Positions 36,312-45,052 of a DNA stretch of 64,000 nt are shown here, piece by piece. The position numbers and the translations under genes are program-made. Numbering within the stretch: the first letter of the stretch is position 1; every line of letters starts with the position of its first letter. The notes under the pieces are model-generated. The model was given only the letters and a program-made list of their open reading frames with translations. It had not been told where the DNA came from and did not search any database. Source of the DNA: Planctomycetes bacterium syqfu (GTDB taxonomy: Bacteria; Planctomycetota; Phycisphaerae; Phycisphaerales; Phycisphaeraceae); NCBI GenBank assembly GCA_020974905.1, contig CP087563.1, forward strand, positions 5,518,001 through 5,582,000. The letters run 5' to 3'.

Positions 36312-37460
36312 TCAATATCGATTCTGTTTGCCCACGGAAAGCTTGGCTAAATCCAGTTTTGCCAGGATGTCCGCAATCTGCTTACCCGCATGCCCATCAC
36401 CATACGGATGCTTGCGGCACTTGGGTGGATTCGTCAACGCCTGCATGATCGCTTGCTGCACGGACTCTTTGCCATAATCGCAGTCGATGACGTTGGTCGG
36501 TTTTTCACGTCCATTCTGACGTGGGCCGATGTTCACCACCGGCACGCCATCTTTGCGGACGGCTGCGGCTTCGATGAGTCCGGCGGATGAATTGCCCACC
36601 AAGACTGCTGCACGTTTGAGCAGCGCAATGAACTGTTCGCGTTTGAGATGCGGCACGACTTTCACGCGGCTGCCTTCAATCGCTTTGCGAATTCCCTCAC
36701 AGCCCGGGTCCTGATTGGGCATCACCACCATGAACGGCATCTTGCCCAGCGCCTTGATCGTCGCACGCATGTGCTTGGCTTCCTGCGTCTCGGGTAAACC
36801 CACCGGGTGTTGTAACACCATCGCGTAAGGTTCGTCCGGCGCAAAGCCGCAATTCTCCAGTACGTGATCGTCCGCAGCCTGCATGTCCGCCAAGGCATCA
36901 ATCGCCGGTGATCCGACATTGAAAACCAACTCCTCAGGTTCACCCAGTCGGACAATGCGGCTGGCGCTTTGCTTGCTTGCTGGAAAGTGAATGTGCGCCA
37001 GTTTGGTGATGGCATGACGCATCGCTTCGTCAGCTACGCCTTCAGCACGATCCCCGCCGTGAATGTGTGCAACATGCAGTCCGCCGACACTTGCTGCCGT
37101 TGCACCTGCCATGGCTTCAATGCGGTCACCGAGCACCAATACCACGTCAGGACGCAGGCGACTCATGACTGCGCCAAAGCCGATGATACCCATGCCCAGC
37201 GCAATGCTGTCTGCAATGCGGCCGGACTCTGACGGACGTTGCATGGGGATTTGCCCGTCGATGCGAAAGCCTGCATCGGTGATATCGCATTCGGTGTTTT
37301 GAACCAGATGCAGACCGCCGACGAGGACTTTGAGGTTTAGTAACGGATGGTCTTTGATGGCTTGCATCACCGGTTTGAGCAAGCCGAATTCAGCGCGCGT
37401 GCCGGTGAAGACCGCGATGTTTTTTTTCTTGATGCGTTTGGTGGACTTCTTTTTGGACAT
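36312..37460 (-). CDS. Hydrolysing UDP-GlcNAc 2-epimerase family (NeuC/LegG-like)
   Basis: The 382-residue protein has FTGTRAEFGLLKPVM at residues 18-32, GDRIEAMAGA at 111-120 and AHIHGGDRAEG at 131-141, the marks of the hydrolysing NeuC branch rather than WecB. It would turn a UDP-HexNAc derivative into a 2-epimer sugar plus UDP, the first committed step to sialic-, legionaminic- or related nonulosonic acids. The start codon follows the stop of the cytidylyltransferase gene without a gap, so translation is probably coupled. The basic start (SKKKSTKRIKKK) is unusual. It is the last gene of the four-gene operon. Confidence 0.9.
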   Translation of the reverse strand: MSKKKSTKRIKKKNIAVFTGTRAEFGLLKPVMQAIKDHPLLNLKVLVGGLHLVQNTECDITDAGFRIDGQIPMQRPSESGRIADSIALGMGIIGFGAVMSRLRPDVVLVLGDRIEAMAGATAASVGGLHVAHIHGGDRAEGVADEAMRHAITKLAHIHFPASKQSASRIVRLGEPEELVFNVGSPAIDALADMQAADDHVLENCGFAPDEPYAMVLQHPVGLPETQEAKHMRATIKALGKMPFMVVMPNQDPGCEGIRKAIEGSRVKVVPHLKREQFIALLKRAAVLVGNSSAGLIEAAAVRKDGVPVVNIGPRQNGREKPTNVIDCDYGKESVQQAIMQALTNPPKCRKHPYGDGHAGKQIADILAKLDLAKLSVGKQNRY

Positions 37461-38183
37461 TCAGATTTTCCCTTGAGATTGGCGATGTTTCAAGACAGCC
37501 TGGGCTTTGAGCAGGTCCAGTTCATCGTCGATATCCACGATGTCATTTTCCTGCGTGACAATGCCACGGCGGTCGGTCCCCAGAAAATTGTGCGGGTGTG
37601 CTTCATCCACGTCAAACAGACATTCACGTCGGACCACCAGCACGCCGGAGTTGAGCATGTAGACAGGCGGTAAATCCTGGCGTCGGTAGATTTCGTTGGG
37701 GATGTAAGGTTCGATGACGTCTTGATCATCGCCGGTGAGTTTGCGCATCCACAGGGGATGGGTTTTGCCCACGTTGTAGACGGTTTGCACACTGTCGCAT
37801 CCGGTTTCGATGAGTTTATCAATCGCGCGGTCGGTCAGGTCATCGGGGCGCAGCGCGACGTTGGCATAGAGGATCGCAATAACCGACGCCTGCTTGCCGG
37901 ACTCGTTTTCCCATGCGCTCACGCCATTACGCACAGCCGCATCGACGGTGACCAGATCGCCGGAAAGTTCATCAGGACGTTTGTAGGAGTGAACACCATA
38001 GCTGCGTCCCACATCAAGAATCGCTTCGCCATCGGATGAAAGGATGACCGCTTGGGGTCGCTTGCTTTGCAGCGCATGTTCGACGGTCCACGCGGTCAGT
38101 GGCTTGCCACCAAGCTCGCGCATGTTTTTATGTTTGAGCCCCTTGCTGCCGGCCCGACCGATGATGACTGCGATGGTGGTCAT
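37461..38183 (-). CDS. CMP-nonulosonate cytidylyltransferase (NeuA/PseF/LegF-like)
   Basis: The 240-residue protein begins IAVIIGRAGSKGLKHKNMRELGGKPL, the nucleotide-binding signature of acylneuraminate cytidylyltransferases (GRAGSKGLKHKN at residues 9-20). DDELDLLKAQ closes the fold. It activates a nonulosonic acid with CTP to the CMP sugar used by glycosyltransferases. It lies between a nucleotidyltransferase/SPASM fusion gene (112 bp upstream, with an inverted repeat in the gap) and the NeuC-like gene (0 bp). A NeuB-type synthase, needed for the step between NeuC and NeuA, is not in the window. Confidence 0.88.
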   Translation of the reverse strand: MTTIAVIIGRAGSKGLKHKNMRELGGKPLTAWTVEHALQSKRPQAVILSSDGEAILDVGRSYGVHSYKRPDELSGDLVTVDAAVRNGVSAWENESGKQASVIAILYANVALRPDDLTDRAIDKLIETGCDSVQTVYNVGKTHPLWMRKLTGDDQDVIEPYIPNEIYRRQDLPPVYMLNSGVLVVRRECLFDVDEAHPHNFLGTDRRGIVTQENDIVDIDDELDLLKAQAVLKHRQSQGKI

Positions 38184-38295: not shown

Positions 38296-39939
38296 TCACG
38301 GCCGATGCCATTCGTGACATTGGCTGCAGAGTTCAAGTGAATCAATCTCGCCTGCAGCATGTTGCTCGCAGAGCGTTTTACCCTTGTTTTCCCAGAGTTG
38401 TGGCAGACTCACAGTGTTATCCGACACATCACCCAAGGGTGCCTTGGCAAGCCAGTCCTGATCGCATTGGGCGACCTTGCCATCACTGTGAATCGTCACA
38501 CGCCGCGAAAGCTGACGACAGGCAAAGCGCGTCGGCGGGGCCATCCGCACCGGGCTTAACTCCGGCATTAGCCCGCAACCCGATTGGGCAGGCAGGATCA
38601 CCGCCTGATGTGTGTAATGCATCCAGCGATCAAAGAACGTCTCCATGTCCTTGAGATTTTCAGCGGTCTTGATCAGGTGAGGTACGATCCACGGGACACC
38701 GGCTTGCGTGGTCGCGTCGGGCAATTGCCAACGACGGTTACGCTCGTTGATCATCCACTGCAAATTGTCTGTCACATGCTTGAAGTTGTATTCGTCACTG
38801 ATCGGACTGCACAATGATTCATACGTTGCAGCCGTGTCCGCATTCAGATGGACCGCGACAATATCCACCGGCAGATGCAGCAGCTTGTCCACATCTTCCA
38901 TCGGTCCCTGCAGATCCGTCTTGATGCAGATGCCAAACACGCCATACTCTTTTGCTAGCTTGATCGCATCAACCCAGTGTTCATAAAGCATCGCATCACC
39001 CAGCCCGCCAAACGTGACCAGTGACATCGAAGGCAACTGTTTGAGTATGCCTTGAAGTACATCCATTGACATTGGCTCGCGGTCAAGGTCAACATAATGC
39101 TGTGGCATGAGTGGCCCCTTGCACACACGCTGGGGTGTCAACTCAATATGCACTTCGCGCGGCATCTCGGTCGGGACTTGCAACGTGCCCGCAATCTCAG
39201 CGGCAGTCGCTTGATCCCAATCAATGTCCATGGCATTGATCATGGCAATGCTGCGGTCGTTGTCATAAATCAAACGCTGGGCGATATTGCGCACCGCCGG
39301 TTCGATGGCATAGCAGATGTCGCGGCCAATGGGGTCCGCTTGGGGATGCGAAGGGACATAAGCGAGCATGCTGCCCAGTGTCGCCCCGTCATTCGCTGCC
39401 AGCTGTTTGAGGAGTTGGGTACAGATGACAATGCCCGACAAACCTGGCGGAGACTGGTTGAACGTCATCTGCATGTCGTTGGGATGTTCCAGGTGAATAT
39501 CCAACGTTTTCTGACAGTACGTCGGATCAACCAACGGCCAATCACCCCCGACAAGTATGGCAGCGTCGGTCTTGTTGGCAACGGCAGCGTCATGAACCGA
39601 CTTGATCGGCAGCAGTTCGTCGTAGCAGGTCATGCCCCCCAAACCGCCACGCCAGTTGTTCATCGCCCATTTGCGGGCGGATTGACGTAACGCCGTGAAC
39701 TTATCGAACACCTCACCCTTGTGAAAGACCAACGGCTTTTTGTTCTGGCTGACAATGTCGGAAAGATCCTGATCCGCCGGGTGCACAATGATGATTTTCT
39801 TGACCGACTTGATCTGTTCAAGGCGGTTGACTGTGCGCTGCAAAACCGTCTGGCCCCCAAGCCTGTCTTCAAGATGCGAAGGCAAGCCCATTCGGCTTTG
39901 TTGTCGGTCGGCAATCACAATGGCATGCGTGTTGGGCAT
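38296..39939 (-). CDS. Nucleotidyltransferase fused to a degenerate radical-SAM/SPASM-like domain
   Basis: The start is ATG 39939; the frame is open further upstream but would run into the maf gene and the hairpin between them. Residues 1-240 form a GT-A-type nucleotidyltransferase (IVIADRQQSRMGLPSHLEDRLGG; AAILVGGDWPLVDP). Residues about 260-480 read like a radical-SAM barrel (HIELTPQRVCKGPLMPQ; SLVTFGGLGDAMLY), but of the CX3CX2C cluster only C273 remains. A SPASM-like tail follows, with several Cys (FACRQL...VAQCDQDW...LCSQCHEW). It lies between maf and a cytidylyltransferase gene, so a role in nonulosonate or surface glycan modification is likely. The reaction is unknown. Confidence 0.7.
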   Translation of the reverse strand: MPNTHAIVIADRQQSRMGLPSHLEDRLGGQTVLQRTVNRLEQIKSVKKIIIVHPADQDLSDIVSQNKKPLVFHKGEVFDKFTALRQSARKWAMNNWRGGLGGMTCYDELLPIKSVHDAAVANKTDAAILVGGDWPLVDPTYCQKTLDIHLEHPNDMQMTFNQSPPGLSGIVICTQLLKQLAANDGATLGSMLAYVPSHPQADPIGRDICYAIEPAVRNIAQRLIYDNDRSIAMINAMDIDWDQATAAEIAGTLQVPTEMPREVHIELTPQRVCKGPLMPQHYVDLDREPMSMDVLQGILKQLPSMSLVTFGGLGDAMLYEHWVDAIKLAKEYGVFGICIKTDLQGPMEDVDKLLHLPVDIVAVHLNADTAATYESLCSPISDEYNFKHVTDNLQWMINERNRRWQLPDATTQAGVPWIVPHLIKTAENLKDMETFFDRWMHYTHQAVILPAQSGCGLMPELSPVRMAPPTRFACRQLSRRVTIHSDGKVAQCDQDWLAKAPLGDVSDNTVSLPQLWENKGKTLCEQHAAGEIDSLELCSQCHEWHRP

Positions 39940-39991: not shown

Positions 39992-41911
39992 TTAAACGCG
40001 GGTCTTTTCTTTCCGATGTTGCTTGTACAGATCACGGGTGCGTGCAAGGGCGTCGCGGAAAATCTGCTGCCCTTCATCGCAAGCCTGAATCAACCACTCA
40101 AGGTTTTCAATGTCGCGATCGATCTGACGCCGTTGGACTTCGTACTGATCCATGTCCTGGTGATGAATCGCACGGTCTGCACGGGCACGCTTAAAGGCAC
40201 CGATGGTGTTCAGTTCATTCACCAGCGTGAACGTGTCCTCAAGCATGTCGACTTTCTTCTTGTTCTTCTCAATCTTGTCATGAATCTCACATGCCTTGGC
40301 ATAGTTGCGCTGATGCTTCTTCATCGACTCAAGCAGGGGGACCGTTCGCTGACTTAACGAACGTATCTCTTCGACTTCGGCTAAGCGACGTTCAAGCAGC
40401 TTGACCATTTTGGCAAGACGATTCGTATCAAAATCACGCGAAGGGACCGGCATCCTGGGGACCGGCTTGGTGGCGTAGGCATCCAGTGCATCGACCAAAG
40501 TCATCGGCGTGGTGTTGGCGATGGCCAGACCACCTTCAGTGCAGTCGAGAATCTGCTGTGTTGATTTGGCAAAGTCACGCTCGAATTGCTTGAGATAGGT
40601 GACCATCTGTTCGTCGGTGAAGATGGGCTTGCCATACATGTCATCCTGGCGCGACAGCAGGCCACGATGCCGGACGATGCGTTGCCACTCCATCATCTCA
40701 AGCGTGTTGAAGCTGTTGAGTTCGGTCGCCCAGACGTCATGGATTGCCGTGCCGGGACAGTAGTAAAGTCCGTCGGAGAAGCCAAGGTCCTGGCCGATGA
40801 GCATGATCGGATCACACCCCATGTACTGCGCCAGATACACCGACAGATGCGCGACGGTGGCGCCAGCTTTGATCGGCGTGATCGGTTTGGCGTCCTCGCC
40901 GAGCATGCGATCCATGTAATTGCTCTGCGTTACGCGCACCGGGCCTGGGAAACTGTCGAGAATGCTGCTGTTGGCTTTGGCTTCGGCAACGAGCGTGATG
41001 TCATCGACATTGCCAATGCCTTCATAGAACCGACTGGAGATCGCGTGGTAATCCAATGCCGTGACAAAGTCCGGTCGGACGCCTCGGGCAAGCAGCGGTT
41101 TGAGTGTTGTTTGAGCTGAGATGACGATCACGTTTTTACGGATGTCCGGATTGGTCAGCAGGTCGATGTTCTTGGCAAGTGATGGGCCTGCACCGACACA
41201 GATTGCCGGATAGCCTTCTGCTGCCAGATAGAGTTCGTTGGTGTTGGGACCTGCGCCGTAGTAGGCCAGGTTCATGGTATTGTTACGCACGGTGCGCGAG
41301 GAGTTGACCAGCGCGGTGGCAACGTTGGTTCGGAAGAAGGCTAACGCTTCGGTGACCAGGCCGCCAAACTCATGAATCGCAGCCGAGTCGAGTTGGCGGG
41401 TGGTGGGGTGCGTGATCAGTTGCGTGCCCTGGGTCATGATGCTGCCAAAGCCTTCGATGCGCCCCAGCAGTCCCGAGCGGTCCATGGTGGTGTCGGCCAG
41501 CAGGACATTGTGGCGTCCCAACCATGCTGTGTGATCTATTTTGGATAGCACCGCTTTGAGTAGACTCAGGTTCGGTTCAAAGACGATGATTAACGAACGA
41601 TTGTCGTTGAGTTCAACAGCGGCTTTGGCAACGTGGTACCCAAGCCCCATGCCCAAAAAAACGGCAGCGGCATGCTTGGTCGGATCAAGTTGACTATTGA
41701 GTTTGTCGGCTTCGGCCATGGGATCGAAGCGCGACGCCAGGGAGAGCTTGCGACCCGCATGTTCCAACGTGGCGGTGAGTGGTCCGGCTTTGGAGGCTGC
41801 CCAGGTGAGTTCCATGGGCGGGGCGTCCTCAATGCGTTTTGCCATCTCCGGTTCGGTGATCGCCAACTGCTTGAGATTGGCGCGCAGAATGTCCGTTGAG
41901 TTTGCCATCAT
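39992..41911 (-). CDS. Maf/MptE-like (DUF115) flagellin-glycosylation-type protein
   Basis: The 639-residue protein has an N-terminal Rossmann-like region (AAVFLGMGLGYHVAKAA) and the central MptE-like/DUF115 domain (AICVGAGPSLAKNID, VISAQTTLKPLLARGVRPDF, LIGQDLGFSDGLYY). A helical C-terminus of about 150 residues follows. Maf proteins transfer pseudaminic, legionaminic or related acids from CMP to Ser/Thr of flagellins in Campylobacter, Helicobacter, Aeromonas and Clostridium. It is first in an operon with nonulosonate-pathway genes, which strengthens the call. The acceptor could be flagellin or another surface protein; none is visible here. The start may be either of two adjacent ATG codons. 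Confidence 0.85.
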   Translation of the reverse strand: MMANSTDILRANLKQLAITEPEMAKRIEDAPPMELTWAASKAGPLTATLEHAGRKLSLASRFDPMAEADKLNSQLDPTKHAAAVFLGMGLGYHVAKAAVELNDNRSLIIVFEPNLSLLKAVLSKIDHTAWLGRHNVLLADTTMDRSGLLGRIEGFGSIMTQGTQLITHPTTRQLDSAAIHEFGGLVTEALAFFRTNVATALVNSSRTVRNNTMNLAYYGAGPNTNELYLAAEGYPAICVGAGPSLAKNIDLLTNPDIRKNVIVISAQTTLKPLLARGVRPDFVTALDYHAISSRFYEGIGNVDDITLVAEAKANSSILDSFPGPVRVTQSNYMDRMLGEDAKPITPIKAGATVAHLSVYLAQYMGCDPIMLIGQDLGFSDGLYYCPGTAIHDVWATELNSFNTLEMMEWQRIVRHRGLLSRQDDMYGKPIFTDEQMVTYLKQFERDFAKSTQQILDCTEGGLAIANTTPMTLVDALDAYATKPVPRMPVPSRDFDTNRLAKMVKLLERRLAEVEEIRSLSQRTVPLLESMKKHQRNYAKACEIHDKIEKNKKKVDMLEDTFTLVNELNTIGAFKRARADRAIHHQDMDQYEVQRRQIDRDIENLEWLIQACDEGQQIFRDALARTRDLYKQHRKEKTRV

Positions 41912-42257: not shown

Positions 42258-42809
42258 ATGCTGACTTTAAACCGCAAAACCGAATATGCCCTCGTCTCCC
42301 TGTGTTACTTGGAGCAGCAACGCCAGCAGGGTCGGCCGTTGGTCAGTGCTCAGCGGATTGCTGAGACTTTCAGCTTGCCGTTGCCTTTGCTGATGAACAT
42401 TCTCAAGCAACTGCGACGGGCCGGTTTTGTCAATTCGACCCGTGGCTCGACCGGCGGATACGCGTTGGACCGAGATGCGTCGGAGATCATCCTGCTGGAG
42501 GTGTTGGAGGTTATGGAAGGGCCTATTAGTTTGACACCTTGCACAACGCTTCATCAGTGTGCCTGTGATGATCTCGAAACCGGATCGGTGGAAGCTGAGG
42601 AATGCGAGTTGCTCGGATACTGCCCGGTTCAGAACGCGATTGGTCGACTGCACAATCGAATTGAAGCGTTTTTGAAAGATGTTTCCCTTGCTGACCTAGT
42701 GGACAGTTCCGTGGACGTGCCGGTCAATGCAGTGGGCTATGAAATAAAAAATGGTCACGCCAGGCAAGATTTGGTGTCGGCCGTCAGTGACGAGTTGGAA
42801 TTAAAATAG
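42258..42809 (+). CDS. iscR: Rrf2-family iron-sulfur regulator, IscR-like
   Basis: The 183-residue protein has an Rrf2 winged helix (TEYALVSLCYLEQQ; QRIAETFSLPLPLLMNILKQL; NSTRGSTGGYALDRD). The Cys-rich loop (CTTLHQCACDD ... EECELLGYC) around residues 95-122 could bind a [2Fe-2S] cluster, as in IscR. IscR represses the isc operon when it carries a cluster. It is the first gene of iscR-iscS-iscU-iscA. It has about 40 residues of extra C-terminal sequence compared with the minimal Rrf2 fold. Confidence 0.9.
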   Translation: MLTLNRKTEYALVSLCYLEQQRQQGRPLVSAQRIAETFSLPLPLLMNILKQLRRAGFVNSTRGSTGGYALDRDASEIILLEVLEVMEGPISLTPCTTLHQCACDDLETGSVEAEECELLGYCPVQNAIGRLHNRIEAFLKDVSLADLVDSSVDVPVNAVGYEIKNGHARQDLVSAVSDELELK

Positions 42810-42849
42810 GTACGAGAAAAATCCTGCCGACCCATAGGAGTAAACGGCA

Positions 42850-44070
42850 ATGTCAATCAAGTTTCCCATTTATCTGGATCACAACGCCACCACGCCCGTC
42901 GACGAGCGTGTCCTCGAAGCGATGCTGCCTTACTTCACCGAGAAGTTCGGCAATGCCGCCAGCCGTAACCATGCCTTTGGTTGGGAAGCGGAAAAGGGTG
43001 TTGACCTGGCCCGTGAACAGATGGCTGATCTGATCGGTGCTGACCCCAAGGAAATCATCTGGACCAGCGGTTCAACTGAATCCAACAACCTGGCTATCAA
43101 GGGTGCTGCGACGATGTACGCTCGCAAGGGTAAGCACATCATCACCGCTGAGCATGAACACAAAGCCACGCTTGACCCGTGTAAGCGTCTGGAAAAAGAA
43201 GGTTACGAAGTGACCTATCTGGATCCGCCACTCGATGGTGTGATCACCGCGGATATGGTCAAGGATGCCATCCGCGAAGACACGGTACTCGTCTCTCTGA
43301 TGTGGGCCAACAATGAAATCGGCACCATCAACGAGATTCCCGAGATCGGCAAGATCTGTAAGGAAAAGGGCATCGTCTTCCATACTGATGCAACGCAAAT
43401 GGTCGGCAAGCTCCCCATCGATGTCGAAGAAGCGGGGGTTGACCTGCTCAGTGCATCGGGTCACAAGTTCTACGGTCCCAAGGGCATCGGCTGCTTGTAC
43501 GTCCGTCGTCGTCGCCCGCGTATTCGTTTGACTGCCATCATTGATGGTGGTGGCCATGAACGTGGTATGCGATCCGGCACGCTCAATGTCACCGGCATTG
43601 TTGGCATGGGCGCAGCCGCTGCACTGTGCAAAGCCGAGATGTCCGACGATGCGATCCGCCTGGGCAACCTGCGTAACAAACTCGAACAGACCATCACCGA
43701 TCAACTTGACGGTGTTGCCATCAACGGTGCGTTGGATAAGCGTATCCCGCATACCAGCAACATCAGCTTCGCCTGGGTTGAAGGTGAATCGTTGATGATG
43801 GCGATCAAGGAAATCGCCGTCTCCTCCGGTTCAGCATGTACCAGTGCATCACTCGAACCCAGCTACGTGCTTAAGAGTCTGGGTGTCGGGGACGACCTGG
43901 CTCACAGTTCACTGCGATTCGGTTTGGGGCGCAAGACCACCGAGGAAGAAATCGACTACACCGCACAGAAGGTTGTCGAAGGCGTCAAGAAACTGCGTGA
44001 ACTGAGCCCGCTTTACGAAATGCACCTGGAAGGCATTGACCTGTCCACCGTGGAATGGGCCGATCACTAA
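42850..44070 (+). CDS. iscS: Cysteine desulfurase
   Basis: The 406-residue PLP enzyme shows [17 protein letters not shown] at the start, K206 in [13 protein letters not shown] for PLP, and the active-site C330 in the group-I loop [14 protein letters not shown]. It takes sulfur from cysteine as a persulfide and hands it to IscU. AGGAG lies about 7 bp upstream of the start. It is separated by 40 bp from iscR. The gap of 197 bp to iscU contains a hairpin and a tandem repeat. Confidence 0.95.
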
Positions 44071-44098
44071 GCCAGTTGTTTGAATACAAGAACACAAG

Positions 44099-44127
44099 CC
44101 GTCAGATGAGCAACGCGAATCTGACGG
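44099..44127 (+). promoter_or_regulatory. Hairpin in the iscS-iscU gap
   Basis: CCGTCAGAT and ATCTGACGG form a perfect 9-bp stem with an 11-nt loop, 28 bp after iscS. No T run follows, so it is more likely an mRNA processing or stability element than a terminator. Confidence 0.4.
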
Positions 44128-44220
44128 GTCTCCGAAAAGCGTGAGACACAAGAATACGAGAAGGAAAAGGACGGGCAGGCTATAGCGGATCAAGTGGATG
44201 GTAAGCATGTGAATTACCTA

Positions 44221-44248
44221 GTCCCTGGTCCCTAGTCCCTGGTCCCTA
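44221..44248. repeat. Tandem 14-bp repeat before iscU
   Basis: AGTCCCTGGTCCCT occurs twice in direct tandem and ends 20 bp before the start codon of iscU, just upstream of its AAGGAG ribosome site. Confidence 0.7.
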
Positions 44249-44267
44249 AAACAAAAAGGAGTCAGTC

Positions 44268-44672
44268 ATGGCTTATAGCGAAAAAGTTGTAGATCACTAC
44301 GAACATCCCCGTAACGTTGGTTCACTGGACAAGGCTGCTGAAAACGTTGGTACCGGCGTCGTCGGCGCCCCCGAATGTGGTGACGTCATGAAGCTGCAAA
44401 TCCAGGTCGATCAGGCTACAGGCAAGATCACCGATGCCAAGTTCAAGACCTTTGGTTGTGGCAGTGCCATCGCCTCGTCCTCCCTGGCCACCGAATGGGT
44501 CAAGGGCAAGACCGTCGACGAAGCGCTTCAGATCAAGAACACCGACATCGTCAACGAATTGTCACTGCCCCCGGTGAAAATTCACTGCTCCGTGTTGGCC
44601 GAAGATGCCATCCGCAGTGCCATCGCCGACTACAAGAAGAAAAACCAACCCGCCGAAGCAGCCACTGCCTGA
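44268..44672 (+). CDS. iscU: Iron-sulfur cluster scaffold protein
   Basis: The 134-residue protein begins MAYSEKVVDHYEHPRNVG and has the three cluster-ligand cysteines C37 (PECGD), C64 (FGCGSAIASSS) and C107 (IHCSVLAEDA), with D39 also conserved. The Leu-Pro-Pro-Val-Lys motif that HscA recognises is present (LPPVKIHC), although no hscA/hscB genes lie in this operon. It assembles [2Fe-2S] clusters from IscS-derived sulfur. AAGGAG precedes ATG 44268. The iscA gene follows after 47 bp. Confidence 0.96.
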   Translation: MAYSEKVVDHYEHPRNVGSLDKAAENVGTGVVGAPECGDVMKLQIQVDQATGKITDAKFKTFGCGSAIASSSLATEWVKGKTVDEALQIKNTDIVNELSLPPVKIHCSVLAEDAIRSAIADYKKKNQPAEAATA

Positions 44673-44719
44673 GGTTGCATTGAGCCAAACAATATTTGTA
44701 ATTTGGAGTAAAACACACC

Positions 44720-45052
44720 ATGGCCATCACACTCACCGAAACCGCTGCACGTGAGATCAACACCATCATCGAACAGCAGAAACTCGACAGCGAAAAAACC
44801 CGCCTGCGCGTTGGCGTCAAGGGTGGCGGCTGCTCCGGTTTCTCTTATCTCCTGGACCTCACCGAACAGGAGAAGGAAACCGACGAGTTGTTCGAACTGC
44901 ACGGCATCAAAGTCGTCTGCGATCCCAAGAGCTATCTCTACCTCAATGGCACCACCATTGACTTTAAAGATGAAATCATGGGCCGCGGCTTTGTGTTCAA
45001 CAATCCCAACGCCAACACCACCTGCGGCTGCGGCAGCTCATTCAGTGCCTAA
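44720..45052 (+). CDS. iscA: A-type iron-sulfur carrier protein
   Basis: The 110-residue protein has the A-type carrier signature: C38 in GGGCSGFSY and C102/C104 in TTCGCGSSF. It receives clusters from IscU and inserts them into apo-enzymes. IscA and ErpA cannot be separated by these motifs; the operon position favours IscA. It is the last gene of the operon. A structured non-coding region with a strong terminator follows. Confidence 0.93.
   Translation: MAITLTETAAREINTIIEQQKLDSEKTRLRVGVKGGGCSGFSYLLDLTEQEKETDELFELHGIKVVCDPKSYLYLNGTTIDFKDEIMGRGFVFNNPNANTTCGCGSSFSA

Follow-up and report, generated by a model that had tools for sequence, protein, structure and literature searches.

The closest named family to the protein described here is spiro-SPASM (TIGR04321), which has the same domain order and length, and to which the 547-aa protein aligns colinearly over its full length (residues 29-545 versus positions 21-506 of the 510 in the model). 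TIGR04321 is matched by all 28 family rows of the alignment that we used for column conservation, with a best E-value of 1e-46, but the score of 88.9 bits obtained here lies below the curated cut-off of 250, which is exceeded in none of 294 Planctomycetota genomes. The name of the family points to spirochaetes, whereas the proteins considered here are from Planctomycetota and are linked to Maf and nonulosonate genes; both were compared through the model only. A second NCBIfam model, TIGR04347, the 'pseudo-SAM/SPASM protein' (pseudo_SAM_Halo), represents, judging by its name, an earlier case of a radical-SAM/SPASM protein that lacks a functional radical site. Its name suggests haloarchaea, and it is matched weakly by five of the 28 rows, far below TIGR04321. 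Cluster-less radical-SAM/SPASM proteins thus already exist by name in NCBIfam, as TIGR04347 and plausibly also as TIGR04321. To our knowledge, the architecture of a nucleotidyltransferase, a cluster-less radical-SAM part and a SPASM domain is known only as a computed NCBIfam model. In the literature library searched we found no paper with the term 'spiro-SPASM' and none on cluster-less radical-SAM/SPASM proteins or on Maf and flagellin glycosylation in planctomycetes. The best solved relative of the barrel and the SPASM part is the 2-deoxy-scyllo-inosamine dehydrogenase BtrN (PDB 4m7t), which has the same cysteine pattern for a single auxiliary cluster. However, BtrN is an active radical-SAM dehydrogenase with a CX3CX2C motif, all three cysteines of which are missing from the 547-aa protein. 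The N-terminal domain shares its fold and motif order with the SpsF/KdsB-type cytidylyltransferases (PDB 6oew and CMP-Kdo synthetase, 1gq9), but lacks their conserved P-loop Lys/Arg and carries a WRGG/DE signature of its own. The Maf flagellin glycosyltransferases (PF01973/PF20157) are the operon partner and are fused to the protein in several lineages, but they form a separate domain and occur without it in 20 genomes.

The gene was found by an open frame search on the minus strand, complement(38296..39939), of a window comprising 64,000 nucleotides of contig CP087563.1 of Planctomycetes bacterium syqfu, a member of the Phycisphaeraceae in the phylum Planctomycetota. The features of the gene and its neighbours are, in positions of the window:

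38296..39939, minus strand: coding sequence of the nucleotidyltransferase-like, pseudo-radical-SAM and SPASM protein (open frame; homologues in relatives; dN/dS)
39220..39939, minus strand: GT-A or cytidylyltransferase-type domain, residues 1-240, with a degenerate P-loop (PF12804; profile versus PDB 6oew and CMP-Kdo synthetase; P-loop columns)
39616..39675, minus strand: family signature R-x6-WRGG-x7-DE, residues 89-108 (most conserved stretch)
38545..39165, minus strand: radical-SAM-derived barrel, residues 259-465 (profile match to BtrN, PqqE, BlsE and MoaA; Foldseek)
39085..39144, minus strand: former CX3CX2C loop, residues 266-285, now ELTPQRVCKGPLMPQHYVDL (cluster positions R271, G275 and M278; alignments)
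38299..38544, minus strand: SPASM domain, residues 466-547 (PF13186; four Cys as in stand-alone radical-SAM homologues and BtrN)
39992..41911, minus strand: Maf/MptE-like flagellin glycosyltransferase gene, directly upstream in the same direction (PF01973, 122.5 bits; PF20157; conserved adjacency)
37461..38183, minus strand: CMP-nonulosonate synthetase gene (PseF-like), downstream (PF02348; TIGR03584, 85.5 bits, below its cut-off)
36312..37460, minus strand: NeuC-type UDP-GlcNAc 2-epimerase gene, downstream (TIGR03568, 345 bits, above its cut-off)

The fusion of a nucleotidyltransferase to a radical-SAM-derived barrel without cluster cysteines, as proposed in the first-pass annotation, is borne out; the GT-A fold and the barrel lie in one 547-aa frame. 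The domain order is an N-terminal cytidylyltransferase-type domain, the radical-SAM barrel and a C-terminal SPASM domain, with a sub-threshold Radical_SAM Pfam match between PF12804 and PF13186. The fusion is, however, not unusual as had been thought, but the standard architecture of a Planctomycetota-wide family resembling spirochaetal spiro-SPASM and no oddity of one genome. Homologues are present in 52 of 61 relatives. Relatives from named records are Phycisphaeraceae or Phycisphaerales MAGs. A plasmid search for close relatives returned only distant matches, annotated as radical SAM or molybdenum cofactor proteins, from Lawsonia and a deltaproteobacterium.

The canonical CX3CX2C motif was claimed to be missing, and it is indeed absent from the protein. 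It was further said to be reduced to a single cysteine, C273, but this does not hold, because the cluster positions are occupied by R271, G275 and M278 and all three cysteines are gone. When the protein is aligned with true radical-SAM homologues and with BtrN, C273 lies two residues off the first cluster position and aligns with a residue that is no ligand; being out of register and a cysteine in only one of the 28 rows, it was rejected as a surviving cluster ligand. The protein therefore lacks the CX3CX2C for the SAM-binding [4Fe-4S] cluster that marks the active enzymes of the radical SAM superfamily. The loss extends to the homologues, as the first-pass annotation had proposed to check: cysteines and P-loop residues were counted in 59 distinct full-length members, and not one of these has a cysteine at any of the three cluster positions, nor an intact CX3CX2C at the site. 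The motif is kept in 18 of 21 matches that cover the C-terminal part only, the other three being contig-edge fragments of the Cys-less family itself, and stand-alone radical-SAM relatives within Planctomycetota retain it as well. In a tree calculated from the barrel and SPASM parts without the loop columns, all 22 Cys-less proteins fall on one side of a branch with a support of 99/98 (100/97 with the loop columns included), so that a single loss suffices. The cluster site is thus absent throughout the sampled family, which is consistent with one loss at or before the family root. Since the homologues share an identical Cys-less state, it is a family trait with one apparent origin, well beyond chance, and not a sequence error. 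An error or a decaying gene in one genome is practically excluded by the same state in 59 distinct homologues, by stop-free frames and by a dN/dS of about 0.1 (some 0.10-0.13 over the full gene). In the barrel taken separately, dS is at or close to saturation, and dN does not exceed that of the rest of the gene. As judged from these substitution rates, the barrel with its loop is under purifying selection, and strong selection has maintained the protein ever since the cluster was lost.

The partial TIM-barrel of the radical SAM superfamily is recognisable by profile and fold matches to BtrN, PqqE, BlsE, MoaA and anSME, the latter kind of match depending on models of low confidence. With the family profile, BtrN was found in the PDB with an E-value of 8e-13 in both barrel and SPASM, followed by PqqE, BlsE, MoaA and others. 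All 46 Foldseek hits below 0.001 of the barrel-SPASM model are radical-SAM enzymes, and those of the full-length model are mainly cytidylyltransferases and radical-SAM enzymes. As the structure models were made from a five-row alignment and are weak (mean pLDDT 57 and 60), the fold assignment rests mainly on the profile search; neither profile nor Foldseek pointed to another fold than a radical-SAM barrel. The GG-type strand that had been predicted is present as GGLGD at residues 311-315. The conservation of this strand and of barrel motifs (G312, G314, T341) could speak for a working radical-SAM domain with a cluster held by other ligands, as could the loop of most Phycisphaerales, which shows its own conserved signature ELTPxR...GPxxPQHH with two His in the alignment. 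However, this His pair is missing outside the Phycisphaerales, where the loop consists of other Cys-free sequences. Moreover, the cluster positions are free of Cys in every member, and the barrel has no widely conserved Cys except C455 close to its end, which is retained in part (in 15 of 28 rows). In one lineage (family f2) the barrel motifs are hardly recognisable while the GT-A part is still there. We therefore regard a working radical-SAM domain as very improbable. The earlier suggestion that the protein may hold a cluster in another way is unsupported for the radical cluster, as no Cys is conserved at its positions and some lineages also lack the SPASM cysteines. The other suggestion, that the barrel may have been turned into a binding domain, is the best-supported reading of the barrel.

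The match of the SPASM tail to PF13186 reaches 29 bits against a cut-off of 21.5, and a Cys-containing tail was correctly recognised from the sequence. The cysteines follow the pattern CX9-15GX4C ... CX2C, here C474-X12-G487-X4-C492 ... C538-X2-C541. BtrN and the stand-alone homologues share this arrangement, which corresponds to one auxiliary cluster, so the tail itself can, by its cysteine pattern, still hold one auxiliary cluster. All four (474, 492, 538, 541) are intact in 45 of the 59 full-length homologues and all are lost in nine, which means that Fe-S is not essential; the losses fall mostly in proteins fused to Maf, among them L080, L081, L082 and L128-L132. In L129-L132, the f2 lineage, the Maf fusions are 1124-1205 aa long with a kept GT-A domain, and barrel and SPASM are hardly recognisable, which represents an end stage of decay. 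The retention of the four cysteines in the 45 members might be explained by a redox or electron-transfer component, in which the SPASM cluster feeds a neighbouring radical enzyme or senses oxygen or iron to tune glycosylation. One related operon does have, between its PseF-like and NeuB genes, a B12-binding radical-SAM gene (L065:6990-8471) whose Radical_SAM match is normal, but no recurring radical enzyme is seen in the operons, and the nine members without the cysteines keep both the gene and the Maf link. We consider such a role to be improbable, although less so than a working radical site.

In the N-terminal domain PF12804 (NTP_transf_3, MobA-like) scores 30.8 bits against a cut-off of 27, PF02348 stays below its cut-off, and the family profile finds the cytidylyltransferase 6oew and CMP-Kdo synthetase in the PDB. 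The position of the catalytic P-loop Lys (Lys27 of 6oew) is H22 in the 547-aa protein; this column has R in 23 of 59 homologues and is otherwise varied, many members having no basic residue, so that the conserved P-loop Arg/Lys of NTP binding is lacking. Other residues of the domain are invariant or nearly so, namely R89, W96-R97-G98-G99, D107-E108, D138, PPG164-166, D202, R222 and D226, with R89, R97 and G99 found in 28 of 28 rows and G99 in 59 of 59 members. This pattern suggests that ligand binding was kept and nucleotidyl transfer lost. Because of the near-invariant polar residues R89, R97, E108, D138, R222 and D226, some unusual transferase activity is conceivable. The GT-A domain could then be catalytically active, as a second CMP-sugar synthetase or as a glycosyltransferase that acts on flagellin or nonulosonate, with the pseudo-radical-SAM/SPASM part only as scaffold or acceptor-binding module. 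In line with this, its strongest similarity is to cytidylyltransferases, and D133 and D138, in this order, are reminiscent of the GDxPLxD stretch in that fold. However, the nucleotide-binding P-loop is not conserved, D133 is kept in just 37 of 59 homologues, and the adjacent gene provides a distinct PseF-like CMP-sugar synthetase. An active transferase is thus unlikely, but it is the alternative that we take most seriously.

The gene was said to belong to a Maf/nonulosonate operon, and it sits between the Maf-like gene and the nonulosonate genes. Of 40 related loci, 31 have Maf immediately upstream, and nine of these 31 encode both proteins as a single reading frame of 1124-1471 aa in which Maf always comes first. 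PseF, NeuB and NeuC genes adjoin in most loci at the level of Phycisphaerales; flagellins and NeuB are encoded elsewhere in the source genome. Linked Maf and CMP-nonulosonate genes together with a flagellin in the genome, as expected for Maf-dependent glycosylation, are therefore all present. Carriers, i.e., genomes with a full-length or GT-A-bearing member, number 32 among the 294 Planctomycetota genomes and are spread over some 20 family-level groups. A Maf/MptE gene is found in 32 of 32 carriers versus 20 of 262 non-carriers (Fisher p 2e-29, shared ancestry ignored), including carriers in which the two genes do not adjoin, and flagellin in 31 of 32 versus 130 of 262 (Fisher p 3e-8, shared ancestry ignored). 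The scan scored four candidates per genome, and for the 20 Maf-bearing non-carriers all candidates were scored, among which no GT-A-bearing member was found. Maf therefore does not always need such a partner.

Three further observations concern these neighbourhoods. An Fe-S assembly set (Rrf2/IscR-like regulator, IscS, IscU and IscA-like, named by eye from the translations) lies divergently beside the Maf operon at 42258-45052 of the window. It was rejected as an operon-linked partner, as it is absent from all 40 related loci, and its vicinity is probably accidental. In several deep-branching lineages a protein of about 200 aa without Pfam match is encoded directly upstream of Maf (L067:12704-13303, L068:3771-4385, L071:12864-13511 and L137:817-2817). 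These copies are homologues of one another, with E-values from 1e-6 to 1e-23, FliS adjoins in L068, and the protein is possibly a flagellin-related helper. Five genomes of the same class (family f9; G197, G212, G261, G309 and G333) are flagellated and have neither Maf nor the 547-aa-type protein; most of them have short flagellins of about 280 aa, whereas those of carriers are often about 500 aa long.

As the protein never occurs without Maf, is usually encoded just after it, is fused to the Maf C-terminus in several loci and has both sets of catalytic residues lost or degraded, the most plausible explanation is that it serves as an adaptor of Maf, binding the donor or flagellin. We therefore favour, with a probability of roughly 0.6, a non-catalytic pseudoenzyme partner or adaptor of the Maf-type flagellin glycosyltransferase, and the 547-aa protein probably assists Maf as a helper or docking factor. 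It would descend from a radical-SAM/SPASM enzyme that was joined to a cytidylyltransferase-type domain of the GT-A fold. SAM cleavage by the barrel would be impossible, and the SPASM tail would in most members hold one [4Fe-4S] cluster as a structural element. The GT-A domain may bind nonulosonate, its CMP form or flagellin, with transferase chemistry absent or much reduced. The sugar donor would be made by the neighbouring PseF-like and NeuC enzymes together with the NeuB encoded elsewhere in the genome, and the adaptor, located beside Maf in the cytoplasm, would position CMP-nonulosonate and flagellin. In Aeromonas, flagellin is a direct binding partner of Maf and receives its glycans in the cytoplasm, before being passed on to its chaperone (PMC4065374).

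We found no description of such an adaptor role for radical-SAM-derived proteins, nor any prior account of the Planctomycetota branch, of its strict association with Maf and the fusions between the two, or of the stepwise disappearance of both clusters. More tentatively, and with slightly less than even chances, a double pseudoenzyme consisting of a dead nucleotidyltransferase, a dead barrel and a structural Fe-S tail undergoing loss could be a dedicated Maf adaptor subunit in Planctomycetota, and possibly, by homology, also in the spirochaetal spiro-SPASM proteins. A radical-SAM barrel without its radical site has been retained phylum-wide, and the decay can be followed in stages from the radical site to the auxiliary cluster and finally to a barrel that is hardly recognisable. 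Through strict co-occurrence with Maf and fusion to it, an orphan architecture gains a concrete, testable function; the findings also suggest that the Maf glycosyltransferases of some phyla work with an accessory subunit.
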